DNA from: Lachnospiraceae bacterium
GTDB taxonomy: Bacteria > Bacillota > Clostridia > Lachnospirales > Lachnospiraceae
Length of the DNA stretch: 41,631 nt
Reading direction: 5' to 3'
Assembly (NCBI GenBank): GCA_024403485.1
Contig: JAKSRT010000008.1
Coordinates: 1-41,631 of the forward strand
The notes beneath the pieces are model-generated. The model was not told the DNA's origin. It made no database searches and saw only the letters and a program-made list of their open reading frames with translations. Position numbers and translations under genes: made by a program. Positions 9,446-18,412 of the stretch are shown in pieces. Numbering within the stretch: position 1 is the first letter of the stretch; the number at the start of each line of letters is the position of its first letter.

Positions 9446-9703
9446 TTATTCTGCAACACTTAAATATTTGTCGATAGCTTCAAGAGCCTGTTCCTCATCG
9501 GCGCCTTCTGTAATAACAGTAAGCTGCGCGTCTTTTGCTATTCCAAGGCTCATCATGCCCATAATGGATTTGGCGTTTATACGTTTGTTTTCTGTTTCGA
9601 TGTAAACAGAGCTTTCAAACTGGCTTGCAATCTGCACAAGCATTGCGCCGGGACGAGCATCCAGTCCGCCCTTAATTTGAACCGTTATGTCCTTCTTTGT
9701 CAT
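9446..9703 (-). CDS. HPr-like protein lacking the active-site histidine (Crh-type)
   Basis: The 85-residue protein has the full HPr fold pattern, but the active-site motif usually read GLHARPA is GLDARPGAM here. Residue 15 is Asp (codon GAT), not the His that carries phosphate from Enzyme I. The HprK target Ser46 and its surroundings (NAKSIMGMMSLG) are intact. It should therefore not serve PTS phosphotransfer. By analogy with Bacillus Crh (Gln15), it would be a regulator phosphorylated on Ser46 and acting with CcpA; that role is inference. Its ATG at 9703 lies inside the 3' end of whiA (32-bp overlap), with GGGAG upstream. An hprK is four genes upstream. Longer in-frame starts enter whiA and are not credible. 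Confidence 0.9.
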   Translation of the reverse strand: MTKKDITVQIKGGLDARPGAMLVQIASQFESSVYIETENKRINAKSIMGMMSLGIAKDAQLTVITEGADEEQALEAIDKYLSVAE

Positions 9704-10607
9704 TTTCTTTCTCCCTTTTTTCGCCGATTTTCTGCGCATATTCACTGATTTTGCGCAGCCTGTGATTGACCCCTGATTTCCCGACAGGGGGATCAAGCAT
9801 CTGACCCAACTCAGCCAGAGAACTTTCAGGATTTTCAAGTCGTAACTCGGCTATCTCCCTTATACCTTCAGGAAGGGCCGAAAGGCCTTCCGTATCTCTT
9901 ATCAGAATAATTTCTTCTATCTGCTTTGAACCTGTTTGCGATGCCCGAAGCAGATTTGATACATCAAAATTATTCCTTCTGTTTATATCGTTTCTGACGT
10001 CCTTTGTAATGCGAACATTGACAAAGTCCATCAAAGCTCTGTGCGCCTCCAATACATTAAGTACATCCTGTATGGTATCTGCATCTTTTACATATACCAC
10101 ATTATACTTTCTGCGGGTAGTACTTTTTGCACCAATATTAAAGTCCTCCAGAATTTCTTTTAGCATTTCTGCACTAAATTCATCCTGACAGACAAATTCA
10201 AGGTGGTATGCCTTCTCCGGATCGTTAATAAACCCTGCAGAAAGAAAAGCACCCCTTAAATAGGCACGCTTGCAACAGTCATTTGTCAAAAGATAGTTCG
10301 GAGCCTCTTTGGCTATTGCATCCATTACAGAAACCATACTCGCATCGTTTCTATCGAAATCTATTGATTTATGGCCGTTTGCGAAACTTTGTTCAAAATC
10401 AACGGTATTTATATTAAATGTTTTATTTAATAAAGTAAAGCATTTTCTTAACGCTGCCTGATTTTGATCATTTGTTGATACGGAAATAACGTTACCTGTC
10501 TTTTTGCCTGCAAATGCTAAAATAGCTGTAAGCTCCGACAATCTGCAGTGGCGGTCATGGGGAATTGAATTTATAAGTTCTTCCTTAACCTCTGACGAAA
10601 ACGACAT
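9672..10607 (-). CDS. whiA: DNA-binding protein WhiA
   Basis: WhiA-family proteins bind DNA and in Bacillus influence cell division and chromosome segregation. The 311-residue protein begins MSFSSEVKEEL. It has the LAGLIDADG-like central part (KRAYLRGAFLSAGFINDPEKAYHLEF, about 122-147) and the C-terminal helix-turn-helix (ASSLAEL-type SSLAELGQMLDPPVGKSGVNHRLRK). Its ATG overlaps the rapZ stop codon as TAATG and its 3' end overlaps the HPr-like gene, a tightly coupled triplet. In Bacillus the same neighbourhood is yvcJ-yvcK-whiA-crh; yvcK is missing here. Confidence 0.96.
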   Translation of the reverse strand: MSFSSEVKEELINSIPHDRHCRLSELTAILAFAGKKTGNVISVSTNDQNQAALRKCFTLLNKTFNINTVDFEQSFANGHKSIDFDRNDASMVSVMDAIAKEAPNYLLTNDCCKRAYLRGAFLSAGFINDPEKAYHLEFVCQDEFSAEMLKEILEDFNIGAKSTTRRKYNVVYVKDADTIQDVLNVLEAHRALMDFVNVRITKDVRNDINRRNNFDVSNLLRASQTGSKQIEEIILIRDTEGLSALPEGIREIAELRLENPESSLAELGQMLDPPVGKSGVNHRLRKISEYAQKIGEKREKENDKEGHNGSN

Positions 10608-11473
10608 TACTTATCTCCACGTTTAATATCTTTATGGGTCAAATTTACCCCGAAATCTTCTTTATCTTTAATGCGAGCATATAACTTTTCAGCCAAAGTA
10701 ACACTTCGATGGTGTCCTCCGGTGCAACCTATGGCTACCACCAACTGATATTTTCCCTCTTTAATATAATTGGGAATCAAAAACATCAGCATGTCTTCCA
10801 ATTTGGACAGAAAAATCTCCGCCTCTTCAAAACCCATTACAAAATCCTGTACCTCTTTATCAAGGCCTGTAAGAGATTTCAAATTATCCACATAATAAGG
10901 ATTTGGCAAAAATCGCACATCAAATACCAAATCCGCATCCTGAGGAATACCATGCTTAAATCCAAAGGATTCAATATTAATCATAAGGTTGTTGAATTTC
11001 TTATTTTCAACAAATATATGATCAAGTTCTGTCTTTAAATCTCTTGTCAGAAGAAGTGAAGTATCTATTACATAGTCCGCTTCTTTTTTTATGCCGGAAA
11101 GAATTACCCTTTCCTTTTCTATACCCTCTTCAACATGTCCGTCAATAGCAAGGGGATGTTTTCTACGGGACTCCTTGTATCTCTTCAGCAAAACCTTGTC
11201 ATTGCTTTCCATAAAAAGGATTTCCAAGGAGACTCCTTTGCTCTTTATTTTTTCAATCGCTTTTACTACTTCATCAAAAGGCTGATCTGCACGGGCATCG
11301 ATTCCAAGGGCAACCTTTGAAAGTTCACTGTCCTTAAGCTCAATCAGTTCAACAAACATCTCAATTAACTGAACAGGGAGATTATCTACACAGTAGTAGC
11401 CGCTATCTTCGAGCATTTTTATTGCTGTTCTTTTGCCACTCCCACTCATTCCTGTTACAATAACAAGTCGCAT
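10607..11473 (-). CDS. rapZ: RNase adapter RapZ / YvcJ nucleotide-binding protein
   Basis: In E. coli RapZ guides RNase E to GlmZ to tune glucosamine-6-phosphate synthesis; in Bacillus YvcJ binds nucleotides and affects competence. The 288-residue protein has an N-terminal P-loop domain (GMSGSGKR, residues 8-15), DNLPVQLIE, and the conserved C-terminal RapZ domain with VVAIGCTGGHHRSVTLAEKL. Position 15 of the P-loop is Arg where Ser/Thr is usual; Thr16 follows. The stop overlaps the whiA ATG. Because many Firmicutes lack GlmZ, the RNA-adapter role is not assured. Confidence 0.94.
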   Translation of the reverse strand: MRLVIVTGMSGSGKRTAIKMLEDSGYYCVDNLPVQLIEMFVELIELKDSELSKVALGIDARADQPFDEVVKAIEKIKSKGVSLEILFMESNDKVLLKRYKESRRKHPLAIDGHVEEGIEKERVILSGIKKEADYVIDTSLLLTRDLKTELDHIFVENKKFNNLMINIESFGFKHGIPQDADLVFDVRFLPNPYYVDNLKSLTGLDKEVQDFVMGFEEAEIFLSKLEDMLMFLIPNYIKEGKYQLVVAIGCTGGHHRSVTLAEKLYARIKDKEDFGVNLTHKDIKRGDK

Positions 11474-11517: not shown

Positions 11518-12429
11518 TTAAAACCGGCCGATTTTTATAACTTCCGTTTCAAGTTTAACACCTGAATTGTCGTATACTTTCTTTTTTACCGCATCTATCA
11601 AATCACTTATATCTTTAGCTGTTGCATTTGCATCATTTACGATAAAGCCTGCATGCTTAGGTGATACACAGGCCCCGCCTATTCTGAAGCCTTTAAGTCC
11701 GGCCTCCTCGATGAGCTGACCCGCAAAGTGACCTTTCGGACGCTTAAATGTGCTTCCGGCGCTGGGAAATTCAAGTGGCTGCTTTTCCACACGACGTGCC
11801 ATAATATCCTTCATGGTCGCACGTATTTCTTCCTCGTTGCCGGGACTTAGTTTAAACGATACCATGGCAACAACTATTCCGGCCTTTGCGACATCACTCT
11901 TTCGATAGTCAAATCTAAGAGAATGCGGAGATACATATATTATCTCGCCCTCTTTTGTTACTGCTTCCACACCGTCAACAACCATGGACATATCTCCACC
12001 ATAAGCACCTGCATTCATTACTATCGCACCGCCTACGGTACCGGGGATTCCATACGCGAATTCCATTCCTGTTAAAGAATAATCCGCTGCGGTCTTGCAC
12101 ACATTTGAAAGAAGTGCTCCTGCTCCGGCAGTTATTTTATTGCCTACAACCACCATATCGGTCAGTTTTCCTGACGGTTTAATCACTATACCTTTGTAGC
12201 CCTCATCGGAAACCAGAAGATTGCTTCCGTTTCCAAGTACAAAGTAATTTGCGTTGCACTTATTAAGAAATCCGATAACTTTAGCCATCTCTTCCATCGT
12301 GTTTACGATAACCATTATTTCAGCGGCACCGCCTACGCGAAAGGTTGTATATTCATTTAGAGAGACCTGCGCTTTTACATTATCTTCGCCGACAAAGCCC
12401 GCCAGGTTCTTTATCATAAATTCGCTCAA
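11518..12429 (-). CDS. murB: UDP-N-acetylenolpyruvoylglucosamine reductase MurB
   Basis: Reduces UDP-GlcNAc-enolpyruvate to UDP-MurNAc with NADPH and FAD, the second committed step of peptidoglycan synthesis. The 303-residue protein shows the type II MurB pattern: NEYTTFRVGGAAE, the FAD-binding YFVLGNGSNLLVSDEGY, GIPGTVGGAIVMNAGAYG and the C-terminal FPSAGSTFKRP with the catalytic Ser. ACVSPKHAGFIVN follows. The start is given as TTG at 12429, with a distant GGAAAG; an ATG four codons later (12417) is an alternative. It lies 33 bp downstream of the ROK kinase and 44 bp upstream of rapZ. Confidence 0.96.
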   Translation of the reverse strand: MSEFMIKNLAGFVGEDNVKAQVSLNEYTTFRVGGAAEIMVIVNTMEEMAKVIGFLNKCNANYFVLGNGSNLLVSDEGYKGIVIKPSGKLTDMVVVGNKITAGAGALLSNVCKTAADYSLTGMEFAYGIPGTVGGAIVMNAGAYGGDMSMVVDGVEAVTKEGEIIYVSPHSLRFDYRKSDVAKAGIVVAMVSFKLSPGNEEEIRATMKDIMARRVEKQPLEFPSAGSTFKRPKGHFAGQLIEEAGLKGFRIGGACVSPKHAGFIVNDANATAKDISDLIDAVKKKVYDNSGVKLETEVIKIGRF

Positions 12430-12462: not shown

Positions 12463-13395
12463 TTACTCTATTACAAGCTTTGCTGCACCATACATTCCTG
12501 CATCGTTACCGAGGGTTGCAAGAACCATCTTTGCATTTTTACAGCCATGGAATGCATATTTGTCAAAAGAAGGAGTGATATAGCTTAATAAAATCTCACC
12601 TGCCTTGGAAACACCGCCTCCGATAACAAATACTTCAGGATTAACAACCGCTGCAATGAGAGCCAGTCCCTTTCCGAGGGTTTCTCCAAACTCTTTTGCA
12701 ACTTCAATGCAAAGTTCATCACCTGCTTTTACACCGTCAAATACGGCCTTTGCAGATAAATCATCCTTTGTGAGAACAGTGCTCTTATCCCACTTTGCAA
12801 ACATTTCCGATGCTGTTCTTGAAATACCGGTTGCGGAAGTGTACTGTTCAAGACATCCGAAATTACCGCATCCGCATGCAATTGTTTCGCCGTCTTTTAC
12901 GTGCATATGTCCGATTTCACCACCGGCTCCTGAAGAGCCACTAACAATTTTACCGTCAACAATAATACCGCCACCGACACCGGTACCAAGTGTAACCATT
13001 ACTACATCGGCATATCCGGCACCGCCACCCTTCCACATTTCACCAAGTGCAGCCACATTGGCATCATTTCCGATCATGGCCTTTAATCCGGTAAGCTTTG
13101 AAAGAGTTTCTGCGGCATTAAAGGTATCCCATCCAAGGTTTACTGCCTTGTGGACAACGCCCTTTGAGTCAACCGGTCCGGGAACACCCGCACCTACACC
13201 AATAACATCAGCAATATCAATACCCTTTTCTGCTATCTTTTCTTTAATGGAAGCTGCAACATCGGGAAGTATTTTCTCTCCACCGTTATCTTTTACGGTT
13301 TTTATTTCCCATTTATCAAGACATTCTCCGTTTTCACTGAGAAGACCCATTTTAACTGTTGTTCCACCTATATCTACACCAAATACGTATTTCAT
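12463..13395 (-). CDS. ROK-family glucokinase
   Basis: Phosphorylates glucose (or a related hexose) with ATP in the cytosol. The 310-residue protein has the N-terminal phosphate loop FGVDIGGTTVKMGL, the sugar-binding GNDANVAALGE and the ATP-site GTGVGGGIIVDGK. The ROK zinc cluster ACGCGNFGCLEQYTS preceded by IGHMHV is present. AAGGAG lies 5 bases before the ATG. It sits in the same run as hprK and the HPr-like gene. This links glucose phosphorylation with the kinase that senses fructose-1,6-bisphosphate, but co-regulation is inferred from adjacency only. Confidence 0.93.
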   Translation of the reverse strand: MKYVFGVDIGGTTVKMGLLSENGECLDKWEIKTVKDNGGEKILPDVAASIKEKIAEKGIDIADVIGVGAGVPGPVDSKGVVHKAVNLGWDTFNAAETLSKLTGLKAMIGNDANVAALGEMWKGGGAGYADVVMVTLGTGVGGGIIVDGKIVSGSSGAGGEIGHMHVKDGETIACGCGNFGCLEQYTSATGISRTASEMFAKWDKSTVLTKDDLSAKAVFDGVKAGDELCIEVAKEFGETLGKGLALIAAVVNPEVFVIGGGVSKAGEILLSYITPSFDKYAFHGCKNAKMVLATLGNDAGMYGAAKLVIE

Positions 13396-13445: not shown

Positions 13446-14381
13446 TTAATCTTCTTCGCGCTTCTCCGCAAAGGATTTTTGAAGTCTCTTGTATAATTCC
13501 TGAGCTGCGTTGTATCCCATCTTCTTCTGACGATGGTTAACAGCTGCCGATTCACAAATGATGGCAAGATTTCTACCGGGACGAATCGGAATACTATGGC
13601 AGACAACTCTGTTTCCAAGATATTCGGTATATTCTTCTTCAAGACCAAGTCTGTCATATTCCTTGTCCTTGTTCCAGTCTTCAAGCTTAATGACAAGATC
13701 AATGTTCTGTGTGTCACGAACACTGGATACACCGAAAAGAGCCTTAACGTCGACAATACCGATACCACGAAGTTCAATGAAGTGCTTTGTTACATCAGGA
13801 GCCGTACCGATAAGTGTATCGTCAGATACTTTTCTGATTTCTACAACGTCGTCTGTTACAAGACGATGTCCTCTCTTAATAAGCTCAAGAGCAGCCTCTG
13901 ATTTACCGATACCGGATTCACCCGTAATCAGAACACCTTCACCGTATACATCAACAAGAACGCCATGAACCGTAATGCAGGGAGCAAGTCTGACCTTAAG
14001 CCATCTGATAATTTCCGCCATAAATTCGGAAGTGGATTTCTTGGTCATCAAAAGCGGTACATTATGTGCCTGAGCTATTTCCATAAAAATTGAATCCGGA
14101 ATGAGTTCACGACAGAATACAAAAGCAGGAATGGGATAAGAAAGAAGCTTTTCATATACTTCTCGTTTTTTCTTAACACTTAATCCTTCCATATATGTAT
14201 ATTCAACAAATCCGATTACCTGAAGTCGTGTAGCCTCGAAGTGTTCAAAATAACCGGTTACCTGAAGAGCGGGACGGTTAATATCGGGCTGTGTAATCTT
14301 AATTCCGGAAATATCAATATCCGGTGTAAGATTTTCAAGTTTCATTTTCTCAACAATCTGAGTAAGTTTTACAGATGCCAT
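13446..14381 (-). CDS. hprK: HPr kinase/phosphorylase
   Basis: Bifunctional enzyme that phosphorylates Ser46 of HPr/Crh at high fructose-1,6-bisphosphate and ATP and removes the phosphate when phosphate is high. The 311-residue protein has the N-terminal DRTGG-like domain to about 130 and the kinase domain with His139 (TVHGVLVDVYG). The P-loop GESGIGKS is at 154-161, followed by the VTDDVVEI acidic pair and the signature FIELRGIGIVDVKALFG. GAGGAG lies 7 bases before the ATG. It is followed by the glucokinase gene 50 bp on. Confidence 0.97.
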   Translation of the reverse strand: MASVKLTQIVEKMKLENLTPDIDISGIKITQPDINRPALQVTGYFEHFEATRLQVIGFVEYTYMEGLSVKKKREVYEKLLSYPIPAFVFCRELIPDSIFMEIAQAHNVPLLMTKKSTSEFMAEIIRWLKVRLAPCITVHGVLVDVYGEGVLITGESGIGKSEAALELIKRGHRLVTDDVVEIRKVSDDTLIGTAPDVTKHFIELRGIGIVDVKALFGVSSVRDTQNIDLVIKLEDWNKDKEYDRLGLEEEYTEYLGNRVVCHSIPIRPGRNLAIICESAAVNHRQKKMGYNAAQELYKRLQKSFAEKREED

Positions 14382-14460: not shown

Positions 14461-16320
14461 TTAGTGGAAATACTTATATACTTCCAATGCAACCCCTTCC
14501 GGAATCTCCGCCCGTTCTGCAATCGTCTCTACCGAAGCCTGCTTTATTTCCTCGACATTTTCAAAAGCTCGCAAAAGTGCCTTTCGTCTGGCAGGTCCGA
14601 TGCCGGGAATATCTTCGAAAACAGAGTGAACCTGCTTCTTTTCCCGAAGGCTCTTATGATATTCAATGGCAAAACGGTGAGCTTCATCCTGAACTCTTGT
14701 AATAAGTTTAAAGCTCTCCGAGTGCCTGTCTATGGGTATCTCTGTTCCGTCCACGTAAAGACCTCTTGTATGGTGGTTGTCATCCTTTACCATACCGCAA
14801 ACGGGAATATTAATTCCAAGTTCCGAAAGAACCTCCAGGGCCACATTTACCTGTCCTTTTCCGCCATCCATCAAAATCAGATCCGGAAATCTTGAAAAGC
14901 TTCCGTACCGCTCGTCCATCTTCTTTTCACGAAGCTGCTTTTTCTCCTCAAAACCGTGAATAAACCGGCGGGATAAAACTTCATGCATACAGGAATAGTC
15001 ATCGGGACCTTCTACGGATTTTATACGGAATTTTCTATAATCGCCCTTAACCGGCTTTCCGCCTTCAAAAACTACCATGGAACCTACGTTTTGAAATCCG
15101 TTTGTATTTGAAATATCAAAAGCTTCCAGACGGTTCAATTCTTCCATTCCGAGAATTTTACCCAGTTCCTCAAGAGCTCCTTTGGTTTTCTTCTCCTCAA
15201 GAACTATTCTTTCCTTATCTTTCTTCAAAACAATTTCAGCATTATTTCTGGCAAGATCCACCAGTTTCTCTTTAAAACCGATTTTGGGAATAACCAGTTT
15301 GCAGGAACCGCCCCTTTGATTTGACAGCCAGCTTGAAATCATATCCTGCTCCGGAATATCCGCGGAAAGCATAATAATGGGTGGTATGTACGGAGTTCCC
15401 GTATAATAGCGTTTGACAAATTCTCCGAGTATCTCTTCATCGCTGAGCCCCTGAATATCATCCATGTGGTGATGTTCTCTTCCGATCATCTTGCCGTTTC
15501 GTACAAAGAAAACCTGTACAACCGCATCGGTTTCATCGTGGGCCTGAGCAATAATATCCTTATCGTCAAATCCGGTATTGTCCGAGATTTTCTGCCTCTC
15601 TATTATTCTTTTTGCACTTTCTATTAAATCTCTGTATTTAATAGCCTCTTCAAAGTCCATTTCCTCGGAAGCTTTTTCCATTTTCTCTTTAAGTTCGCGA
15701 AGCAATGCCTTATCATTGCCATTCATAAAATCGATGGCCAGATTAATATTTGCCTTGTAATCGGCTGAACTTACTTTACCCGAACATGGCGCAAGGCACT
15801 TCCCCATATGGAAATTTAAGCAGGGACGGTCATTTGCTTCTCCTTCTTTACAGGCCTTATTGCAGGTTCTGAATTTATAGGTATTGTTCAGTAATTCGAT
15901 TATGTCATTTACGGCTGCAGAGCTGGTATATGGTCCAAAGTACTTGGACTTATCCTTACCCATTCTTCTGACAAAAGATATTTTAGGATAATCTTCGGTT
16001 ACCGAAACCTTAATATATGGATATGTTTTTGAATCTTTTAATAATGTGTTGTACTTGGGATTGTATTCTTTAATCAGATTGTTCTCGAGAACAAATGCCT
16101 CAAGATCAGAATCCACCACAATATATTCAAAGTGGTCGATAAGAGAAATCATACGCTCAATTTTGGGCGTACGGTTATTCATGACACGAAAATATGACCG
16201 CACACGATTGAAAAGATTAACGGCCTTACCTACATATATAATGTTGTCATCTTTGTCATGCATAAGATAAACTCCCGGTTCCTTCGGGAGTTTATCGAGT
16301 TCTTCTTTAATATTAAACAT
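14461..16320 (-). CDS. uvrC: Excinuclease ABC subunit C
   Basis: UvrC makes the two incisions around DNA lesions in nucleotide excision repair with UvrAB. It has an N-terminal GIY-YIG nuclease (PGVYLMHDKDDNIIYVGKA), a cysteine-rich linker (TCNKACKEGE...RPCLNFHMGKCLAPC) and a UVR motif (MDFEEAIKYRDLI). The RNase H-like half contains FDISNTNG and LILMDGGKGQVNVALEVL, and the C-terminus has helix-hairpin-helix motifs (IPGIGPARRKALLRAF). The start is ATG at 16320 with AGGA just upstream, giving 619 residues; a longer frame from 16374 would only read through ftsH. It overlaps the ftsH stop by 8 bp. Confidence 0.97.
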   Translation of the reverse strand: MFNIKEELDKLPKEPGVYLMHDKDDNIIYVGKAVNLFNRVRSYFRVMNNRTPKIERMISLIDHFEYIVVDSDLEAFVLENNLIKEYNPKYNTLLKDSKTYPYIKVSVTEDYPKISFVRRMGKDKSKYFGPYTSSAAVNDIIELLNNTYKFRTCNKACKEGEANDRPCLNFHMGKCLAPCSGKVSSADYKANINLAIDFMNGNDKALLRELKEKMEKASEEMDFEEAIKYRDLIESAKRIIERQKISDNTGFDDKDIIAQAHDETDAVVQVFFVRNGKMIGREHHHMDDIQGLSDEEILGEFVKRYYTGTPYIPPIIMLSADIPEQDMISSWLSNQRGGSCKLVIPKIGFKEKLVDLARNNAEIVLKKDKERIVLEEKKTKGALEELGKILGMEELNRLEAFDISNTNGFQNVGSMVVFEGGKPVKGDYRKFRIKSVEGPDDYSCMHEVLSRRFIHGFEEKKQLREKKMDERYGSFSRFPDLILMDGGKGQVNVALEVLSELGINIPVCGMVKDDNHHTRGLYVDGTEIPIDRHSESFKLITRVQDEAHRFAIEYHKSLREKKQVHSVFEDIPGIGPARRKALLRAFENVEEIKQASVETIAERAEIPEGVALEVYKYFH

Positions 16321-18412
16321 TGTTATCCTGCTGGGTATTTTCTGTAGGAATGCTATCTGAGGTGTTGCCCTCACTTACCGGAGCCTCACTCTGAATGCTG
16401 TCTCCTGCCGAAGCTGATTCAAGAGCCTGTGCAAATACGGAATATGCAGTACCTTCATCGGGTTTTGCTTCTCCCTCTGCCGGTGAAGTCTCCTTTTTCT
16501 CTTCTCCACTGTCGGCAGAATCTTCCTTCTTTTCCTCTTCAGGATCGGGAAGGCCTTTTTCTCTTCGATAAATTTCCATAAATTCCTTACCGGTAATAGT
16601 TTCTTTTTCAATAAGGTATTCTGCAAGCTTATCAAGAAGTTCTCTGTTTTCGCCAAGAAGTCTTAAGGCTTCGTCGTAAGATTCCTTAAGCATCTGCTTA
16701 ACCTCATCGTCAATCTGAGCCGCAGTCACCTCACTGCAATTAAGAACCTTATGACCGTCAAGATATCTGTTTTCAACAGATTCAAGTCCCATAAGTCCAA
16801 ACTTCTCGCTCATACCATACATGGTAACCATGTTACGGGCGATAGATGTAGCCTTTTCAATATCATTAGCTGCACCGGTTGTAATATCATCAAAGACAAT
16901 TTCTTCGGCTGCACGTCCTGCAACGTAGCCGACAAGCATAGCCTTAAGTTCTTTCTTAGAGTTAAGAAACTTTTCTTCTTCGGGAACCTGCATAACATAG
17001 CCCAATGCTCCCATTGTTCTGGGAACAATGGTAATCTTCTGAACCGGCTCCGAATTTTTCTGAAGAGCGGCCACAAGAGCATGTCCGATTTCATGGTAAG
17101 AAACAATTCTTCTTTCTTCCTTACTCATAATGCGGTCTTTCTTTTCTTTACCGACAAGTACCTGCTCAACTGCCTCAAAAAGGTCTTTTTGAGATACATA
17201 CTCGCGCTTTTCCTTAACCGCATTAATTGCAGCCTCGTTAATCATATTTGCAAGGTCTGAACCGACTGCACCCGAAGTTGCAAGCGCAATGGCATCAAGA
17301 TCTACCGTATCATCCATTAACACATTCTTGGCATGAACCTTAAGAATTTCAACACGTCCCTTAAGATCAGGCTTATCTACAATAATTCTTCGGTCAAAAC
17401 GGCCGGGACGAAGAAGTGCCTTATCAAGAATTTCAGGTCTGTTGGTGGCTGCAAGGATGAGAACACCCTTTGAACTGTCAAAACCGTCCATTTCGGAAAG
17501 GAGCTGATTCAGTGTCTGCTCACGTTCTTCGTTACCGCCGCCGTACTTTGAGTCACGACTCCTACCGATTGCATCAATTTCATCAATAAATACTATACAG
17601 GGTGCGTTTTTGCTGGCCTCTTTGAAGAGGTCTCTTACTCTGGATGCACCTACACCTACAAACATCTCAACAAAGTCGGATCCGGTAAGTGAAAAGAAAG
17701 GAACATGAGCTTCACCCGCAACTGCCTTGGCAAGAAGCGTTTTACCGGTTCCGGGAGGGCCCACAAGAAGGGCACCCTTAGGAAGCTTTGCACCGATTTT
17801 TGAGTATTTGCCGGGATTGTGAAGAAAGTCTACGACTTCTACCAATGATTCTTTTGCTTCATCTTCACCAGCAACGTCCTTAAAGGTTACACCGGTTTCT
17901 TTTTGAACATAAACCTTGGCATTTGATTTACCTACACCCATTACTCCGCCTGAGCCACCCATTTTTCTGGAAAGCAGACTCATAAGCAGGAAGAAAAGCG
18001 CCAAAGGCAAAATATATGTAAGTATTATCGATATTAACCAACTTGAATTGTCCGGTATATCCGAGGAAAATTCCACATTGGCCTTAATAAGTCGTTCGGA
18101 AAGCTGTTCACTGCTCTCGACATATCCCGTACAGTAAGTAATCTCAATCTGCTGAGTATAAGGGTTTGTGTTGTCTTCGGATACCGGATGTATTTCTATC
18201 TTATCCGAATTTAAGAATACGCTTTCAATTTTGCCTTCATTCAGCATCTGAATAAATTCATTGTATGTAATCTCTTTGTTTATTGCATGATTAAGTGCTC
18301 TTGAGAAGTAGCTGATAATCAGCAAAACAACCAGAACCGCCACAAGCATGGGGGCAATGCGGGGTCCGTTTGAGTTCTTTTTCTGATTGTTATTTCCGTT
18401 TTCGTTGTTCAT
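16313..18412 (-). CDS. ftsH: ATP-dependent zinc metalloprotease FtsH
   Basis: Membrane-anchored hexameric AAA+ protease that removes misfolded and regulatory proteins. The layout is TM1 at about 20-40, an external domain to about 122 and TM2 at about 125-148. The AAA module has Walker A GPPGTGKT (218-225), Walker B FIDEID (275-280) and the SRH arginines near RPGRFDRR. The metalloprotease motif HEIGH is at 440-444, with the third zinc ligand in AANDIEKAT (Asp517). After the usual end near residue 622 there is a ~78-residue acidic Ser/Glu/Lys-rich tail. The promoter is about 85 bp upstream. Confidence 0.98.

Follow-up and report, generated by a model that had tools for sequence, protein, structure and literature searches.

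An HPr-like protein encoded after whiA in Lachnospiraceae has an acidic residue in place of the phosphocarrier histidine

The stretch of Lachnospiraceae DNA analysed here (the window, 41,631 nucleotides) encodes, directly after whiA, an HPr-family protein with Asp at position 15 and Ser at position 46. HPr proteins are small, act in sugar signalling and usually bear phosphate on a histidine. Judged by sequence comparison, this protein is likely to be a Crh-like, serine-only HPr that would be switched only by HprK at Ser46, with the acid at position 15 probably kept by selection and setting the choice of partner. The features on which this reading is built are as follows.

14461..16374 (mechanical ORF ends), minus strand: uvrC, head of the same-strand run, an ORF used as synteny marker
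13446..14381, minus strand: hprK, HPr(Ser) kinase/phosphorylase, full length (TIGR00679, 373.5 bits, cut-off 240)
12463..13395, minus strand: ROK-family sugar kinase, with a predicted glucokinase function (PF00480, 222.7 bits)
11518..12429, minus strand: murB (PF02873, 129.4 bits, and PF01565, 76.8 bits)
10607..11473, minus strand: rapZ (NF003828, 360.1 bits, cut-off 244)
9672..10607, minus strand: whiA, overlapping the HPr start by 32 bases (TIGR00647, 241.6 bits, cut-off 44.1)
9446..9703, minus strand: HPr-family protein with Asp15 and Ser46, class C, in the whiA slot (ORF, Pfam PF00381, PDB relatives)
9659..9661, minus strand: codon 15, GAT (Asp), where a PTS phosphocarrier has His (sequence)
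9566..9568, minus strand: codon 46, TCC (Ser), the HprK target position within NAKSIMGMM (sequence)

In the ORF list of the window the HPr gene lies on the minus strand, and a stop codon breaks the plus-strand reading. The product from the ATG at 9703 is MTKKDITVQIKGGLDARPGAML...INAKSIMGMMSL..., 85 amino acids in length, and a ribosome-binding-like AGGGAG was read from the sequence at 9716-9711 ahead of this ATG. The protein scored 99.3 bits against the Pfam PTS-HPr family PF00381. The best NCBIfam model was NF010354, which we take to be the Crh model, at 103.5 bits and under its cut-off of 123. Sequence comparison found INAKSIMGMM, around Ser46, to be near-identical to the Crh motif, and the closest PDB relatives were 3ihs and Crh 1zvv, both with Gln15. 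With Asp15 instead of His15, the protein is set apart from PTS phosphocarriers. A search of a phage collection returned 21 records, all below 60% identity and mostly without annotation.

The seven genes from uvrC (a name presumed from its sequence) to HPr form one minus-strand run in the ORF list, with gaps of 33-79 bases and overlaps of 1 base (rapZ/whiA) and 32 bases (whiA/HPr), measured between mechanical ORF ends. The first-pass annotation had described Asp15 with Ser46 kept, the order rapZ-whiA-HPr, and hprK together with the ROK gene in the same run. Each of these was recovered: the codons stand at 9661-9659 and 9568-9566 of the minus strand, and the gene order was found with ORFs and family models. 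The last two genes recur beyond the window: of 69 named loci (those among the best 80 that extended at least 4.8 kb upstream), 58 have hprK and 55 have ROK upstream in the same orientation. Promoter and terminator scans gave sites no more numerous than in shuffles.

Residue 15 was then read in 177 proteins encoded in the whiA slot (171 distinct), comprising 80 family genomes, 17 other genus genomes and 80 named loci; the named and unnamed sets overlap, and the first 26 HPr residues of RUI136 and UBA1258 equal those of genus members G113 and G100. The family sample was an even one of 100 genomes, with whiA in 92 and a slot HPr in 80. Of the 20 family genomes without a slot HPr, 8 lacked a whiA match; in the other 12 whiA was present, but no HPr was recognised in the sequence retrieved behind it (in one of these 12, G055, the contig ended there). 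The named loci were fetched with a WhiA alignment and were not chosen by HPr; they are the best 80 by WhiA of at least 583 confirmed, and their records are mostly labelled Lachnospiraceae or its genera, with about ten labelled otherwise or more vaguely (for example Anaerolineaceae, Bacillus, uncultured bacterium); these labels point to Lachnospiraceae as the sampled family.

The first-pass annotation had held that a canonical His15 in relatives at this locus would count against its reading; His15 occurred in none of the 177 slot proteins, and Ser46 was present in all 177. In the family sample residue 15 was Glu in 61 genomes, Asp in 11, Gln in 3, Ala in 2 and Gly, Val and Asn in one each, so that it was acidic in 72 of 80, with Ser46 in 80 of 80. 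The 17 other genus genomes were acidic throughout (Glu in 9, Asp in 8). All of the best 80 named loci of at least 583 had an HPr after whiA, with Glu in 67, Asp in 9, Gly in 2 and Gln and Asn in one each (acidic in 76 of 80; Ser46 in 80 of 80). Glu15 is found, for instance, at the loci of Butyrivibrio sp. FCS014 (L390) and Anaerocolumna sp. MB42-C2 (L397). A sequencing error or a strain mutation was rejected as the source of Asp15 because the acid recurs in relatives. Next to whiA an acid prevails, in 159 of 171 distinct proteins, and is mostly Glu; as read from these alignments, Asp is a lineage variant of a family-wide Glu/Asp state. Across the 171 distinct sequences N43, K45, S46, G49 and M51 were invariant. 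At first the acid seemed to persist longer than Arg17 and Pro18, an idea that the counts do not bear out (acid in 159, Arg17 in 150 and Pro18 in 160 of 171).

Two genomes stand apart. Genome G105 carries two whiA-HPr pairs, L051 and L083 (contigs C99 and C100), both with Glu15, perhaps through duplication or contamination; only L051 entered the counts. A class-C-like HPr in G023 (L091, contig C22) has His at aligned position 15 in the context KHSNP, and Arg17 is absent. Its locus of 3.2 kb contains no whiA, rapZ or murB, and the protein lies outside the 177 slot proteins. G023 is 60% complete and gave no whiA or Enzyme I match; its protein is either a divergent class C member or another paralogue, and weighs against the preferred reading.

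Beyond the family, a class-level survey covered 70 whiA loci of 194 whiA-bearing genomes and found a slot HPr in 15, 14 of them outside the family. Residue 15 in these 14, read by eye, was His in 4, Gln in 3, and Thr, Ser, Tyr, Arg, Asn, Lys and Asp in one each; the sole Asp belongs to a family of the same order. Outside the family the slot can thus hold His, and many different residues stand in its place where it has been lost. Among the 70 class-level loci a prevailing acid at position 15 was found in this family only, with the one acidic case beyond it.

This spread of residues has to be weighed against selection on the acid. Parsimony on a quick WhiA tree (118 rows) gave 16 changes at residue 15, 10 of them between Glu and Asp and 6 between acid and non-acid. 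Glu-Asp exchanges at 10 of 16 exceed the approximately 2/7 expected from single-base changes out of Glu codons (binomial p=0.005), which is moderate evidence for selection: proteins in general tend to exchange Glu and Asp readily, which weakens the p-value, and the acid might descend from one ancestor. One could also suppose a plain Crh, in which the loss of His was all that mattered at residue 15 and the acid is a frozen accident without a role. The many residues tolerated in the 14 slot HPrs outside the family agree with such an account, as do the Gln15 of the Crh structures 1zvv and 3ihs and the non-acidic residues in 12 of 160 rows (8 of 80 family genomes and 4 of the best 80 named loci), from which it follows that the charge is not required everywhere. 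We think this account improbable, given an acid in 159 of 171 distinct family sequences, its persistence in 16 of the 21 slot sequences without Arg17, and the excess of Glu-Asp changes over the single-base expectation. In the family, position 15 is mostly acidic, probably as a result of selection.

The whiA-slot proteins (class C) were compared with two further classes of HPr in the family. Class A comprises the HPrs adjacent to ptsI. Regions were retrieved for 60 of the best matches, and the 34 class A proteins retrieved all had His15, with Ser46 in 3; the others had Arg (13), Lys (12), Ala (3), Gly (2) or Thr (1) at position 46. HprK should therefore be unable to brake the PTS HPr of this family, which mostly lacks Ser46. 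The Arg or Lys at position 46 in 25 of the 34 fetched is seen, for example, at loci L004, L007, L009 and L010. Class B, mostly GLHLRP, was selected by a motif that includes Ser46, which makes this residue uninformative for the class; a GLHLRP protein of G064 with Ile46 falls outside the motif. With that limit, both sites are present in class B where Enzyme I exists. When 29 selected class A, B and C rows were placed in a tree with 15 others, each class formed one clade (bootstrap/SH-aLRT 99/97, 100/99 and 97/99, respectively, from few columns). In the sampled family the two HPr phosphorylation sites are shared out among paralogues, with Ser46 in the whiA slot and His15 next to ptsI.

The presence of His15 in class B followed that of Enzyme I. 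It was found in 46 of 46 Enzyme-I-positive genomes examined (two of these proteins, from G001 and G094, are ptsI-adjacent genes matching the class B motif) and was absent in 11 of 12 Enzyme-I-negative ones, where Glu (7), Gln (2), Asp (1) or Asn (1) took its place. The remaining negative genome, G020, has a completeness of 67%, and three PTS EIIC matches in it exceed the cut-off; its Enzyme I may just be missing from the assembly. The correspondence is a pattern and not a significant test, because class B His changed 3 times on the tree and there were 2 supported independent pairs, both in the expected direction and with no power.

The window genome belongs to this second situation. A second, canonical His15 HPr next to ptsI, for which the first-pass annotation had suggested looking, was not found in the genome, nor did a profile search yield a PF02896 or PF05524 match for Enzyme I; at 73% completeness, the absence of Enzyme I from this genome alone is weak evidence. 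Three PF00381 genes were found, with His15 in none. The second HPr (L002, 1483-1764, contig C32), beside a gene that looks to us like isopropylmalate synthase, has GLELRP, hence Glu15, and keeps Ser46; this Glu15 GLELRP protein was present in 7 of 8 Enzyme-I-negative genus genomes, with none found in G115. The third, HPr-like, protein (L003, 1456-1686, contig C61; 76 amino acids) lies near genes that we take to be mtaB and thiI and keeps Ser46, surrounded by IDAKSIMGIFSLDLS; it matches from model position 20, so the residue 15 loop is not recognisable, and similar partial PF00381 matches were present in 17 of 18 genus genomes. A single PTS_EIIC-like protein (contig C41, 18697-19533; 106 bits) was also seen in this genome without a detectable Enzyme I.

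Of the 18 genus genomes, 10 have an Enzyme I, in one of them a contig-end fragment, and 8 had no PF05524 match. These 8, which include the window genome, formed one clade in a quick tree of WhiA and HPr pieces (SH-aLRT 98). Their whiA-slot residue was Asp in all 8, and in the 10 Enzyme-I-positive genomes it was Glu in nine and Asp in one. The acid thus predates the loss of Enzyme I, since it is present in Enzyme-I-positive genus members too. This bears on the idea that residue 15 is a consequence of PTS loss, with His15 drifting once Enzyme I is gone. The class B pattern (no His in 11 of 12 Enzyme-I-negative genomes, against 0 of the 46 positive ones examined) is what such drift would give, and PTS loss may account for class B; for the window gene the slot acid in all 10 Enzyme-I-positive genus members refutes it, and we hold it to be very improbable there. 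Enzyme II was dropped as corroboration of PTS loss, as PF02378 matches fail to discriminate (1 of 8 Enzyme-I-negative and 2 of 6 tested Enzyme-I-positive genus genomes; 4 of 10 Enzyme-I-negative family genomes). In the excerpted text of a 2008 survey Enzyme I and HPr co-occur with few exceptions (PMC2405797), and the Enzyme-I-negative clade looks like such an exception. The paralogue split, together with an Enzyme-I-negative clade in which no His15 was found, carries more interest than residue 15 by itself.

CcpA is the usual partner of Ser-P HPr. None of 117 distinct genomes (100 of the family, 18 of the genus) had a CcpA over the TIGR01481 cut-off, which 2 of 14 control genomes passed and which may suit Bacilli best; with no confident CcpA match, the route by which Ser-P HPr usually acts has no evident candidate here. 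Among the best LacI hits, a counterpart of the CcpA arginine in contact with Ser46-P (R304 in the excerpts of PMC4591507) was present in 1 of the 17 family proteins, which come from 12 genomes, and in 4 of the 18 genus proteins; three of these four are near-identical. CcpA orthologues are reported in all Firmicutes groups surveyed in PMC4052901, the excerpts of which do not name Lachnospiraceae, and the family may still have a CcpA. According to the excerpts of PMC3526391, unphosphorylated His15 contributes to CcpA binding and doubly phosphorylated HPr does not bind, which makes an acidic residue 15 awkward for a canonical CcpA and fits a different partner.

A rival reading is a strict form of the phospho-His mimicry that the first-pass annotation had suggested; we regard it as possible and somewhat doubtful. 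Asp15 or Glu15 would imitate His15~P, and the Ser-P form of class C would be a permanent equivalent of doubly phosphorylated HPr, acting as a decoy or antagonist of CcpA-type regulation. Glu outnumbers Asp in the slot, which suits mimicry, since Asp, Asn, Ser or Thr would be expected if the residue simply capped a helix at its N-terminus. The H15D and H15E variants of HPr reportedly studied by Casabon in 2009 (a title in the reference list of PMC3526391) suit it as well. His15 and Arg17 have, however, reportedly been linked to CcpA signalling (by Horstmann, in 2007), and the retention of Arg17 in 150 of 171 sequences then suggests binding and not avoidance; with no CcpA over cut-off in the 117 genomes there may also be nothing to antagonise. 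Mimicry gains from the excerpts of PMC3526391, in which engineered His15Asp relieves catabolite repression, and from the failure of doubly phosphorylated HPr to bind CcpA noted above. A wider proposal, which we put forward tentatively and with no greater confidence than strict mimicry, starts from the two sites being divided between paralogues and combines a built-in charge at the His15 site of the whiA-slot copy with an HprK branch independent of PTS and CcpA: the Ser46-P protein would always look His-phosphorylated and would address other partners, and in the lineage of the window the PTS phosphotransfer side would be gone, with only this branch left.

The reading that we prefer, a Crh-like and serine-only HPr, would work as follows. 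The window HPr would be a signalling protein and not a sugar-transport phosphocarrier. The HprK of the same run would phosphorylate Ser46 at high levels of glycolytic intermediates and dephosphorylate it at low levels, and the Ser-P form would bind regulatory partners. Asp15, or Glu15 in most relatives, would be unable to accept phosphate from Enzyme I and would put a permanent negative charge at the site that is His~P in other HPrs; kept by selection, it would probably set partner choice and keep the protein out of the PTS. The residues, the gene order, the conservation across the sampled family, the paralogue split and the lack of an Enzyme I match in the clade of the window were observed; that HprK phosphorylates the protein, that Enzyme I does not exchange phosphate with it, which partners it has and what the charge does are predictions from sequence. 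Lachnospiraceae are major fermenters of gut and rumen, and to our knowledge the ranking of carbon sources in them is poorly worked out. The Enzyme-I-negative genomes may offer a setting for HprK signalling without PTS crosstalk.

Compared with known systems, the window HPr resembles Crh of Bacillus in having an HPr domain, keeping Ser46 and losing His15, and its gene lies directly after whiA, like Bacillus crh. It differs from Crh in having Asp (Asp or Glu in relatives) where Crh has Gln (1zvv, 3ihs), in having hprK, ROK and murB in the same run, and in scoring below the cut-off of NF010354. An AU test of one clade of class C with Bacillus Crh gave p 0.616 (83 columns), by which such a clade is neither supported nor rejected. 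The canonical ptsH HPr (class A in the family) has a homologous domain but differs in its His15, its position next to ptsI and the rarity of Ser46. The substitution itself was made earlier in the laboratory. In the excerpts of PMC3526391 HPr His15Asp is termed a histidine phosphomimetic, His15Ala or His15Asp lowers the PTS activity of Listeria HPr by more than 96%, and HPr(His15Asp) can still be phosphorylated on serine in vitro. The engineered His15Asp protein has the same substitution as the window HPr but is a laboratory variant of PTS HPr; unlike it, or His15Glu, the window-type acid is natural and sits in a separate paralogue with invariant Ser46, which makes this paralogue a natural version of a mutant built by biochemists. 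No report of an HPr with an acidic residue 15 in Lachnospiraceae was found in the open-licence literature. The first-pass annotation had proposed a Crh-like branch outside Bacillus; this is supported and is not new. Ccel_0806 of Clostridium cellulolyticum is described as Crh-like in the excerpts of PMC3656788, where the species is reported to be without an HPr orthologue and cognate PTS EII, and where CcpA homologues are proposed as partners; a Crh hit in Thermoanaerobacterium saccharolyticum is mentioned in those of PMC3526391, and a Crh-like protein of C. acetobutylicum is cited in those of PMC13130090. Crh-like proteins outside Bacillus are already in print, and the form with an acidic residue 15 in this family is what is added.
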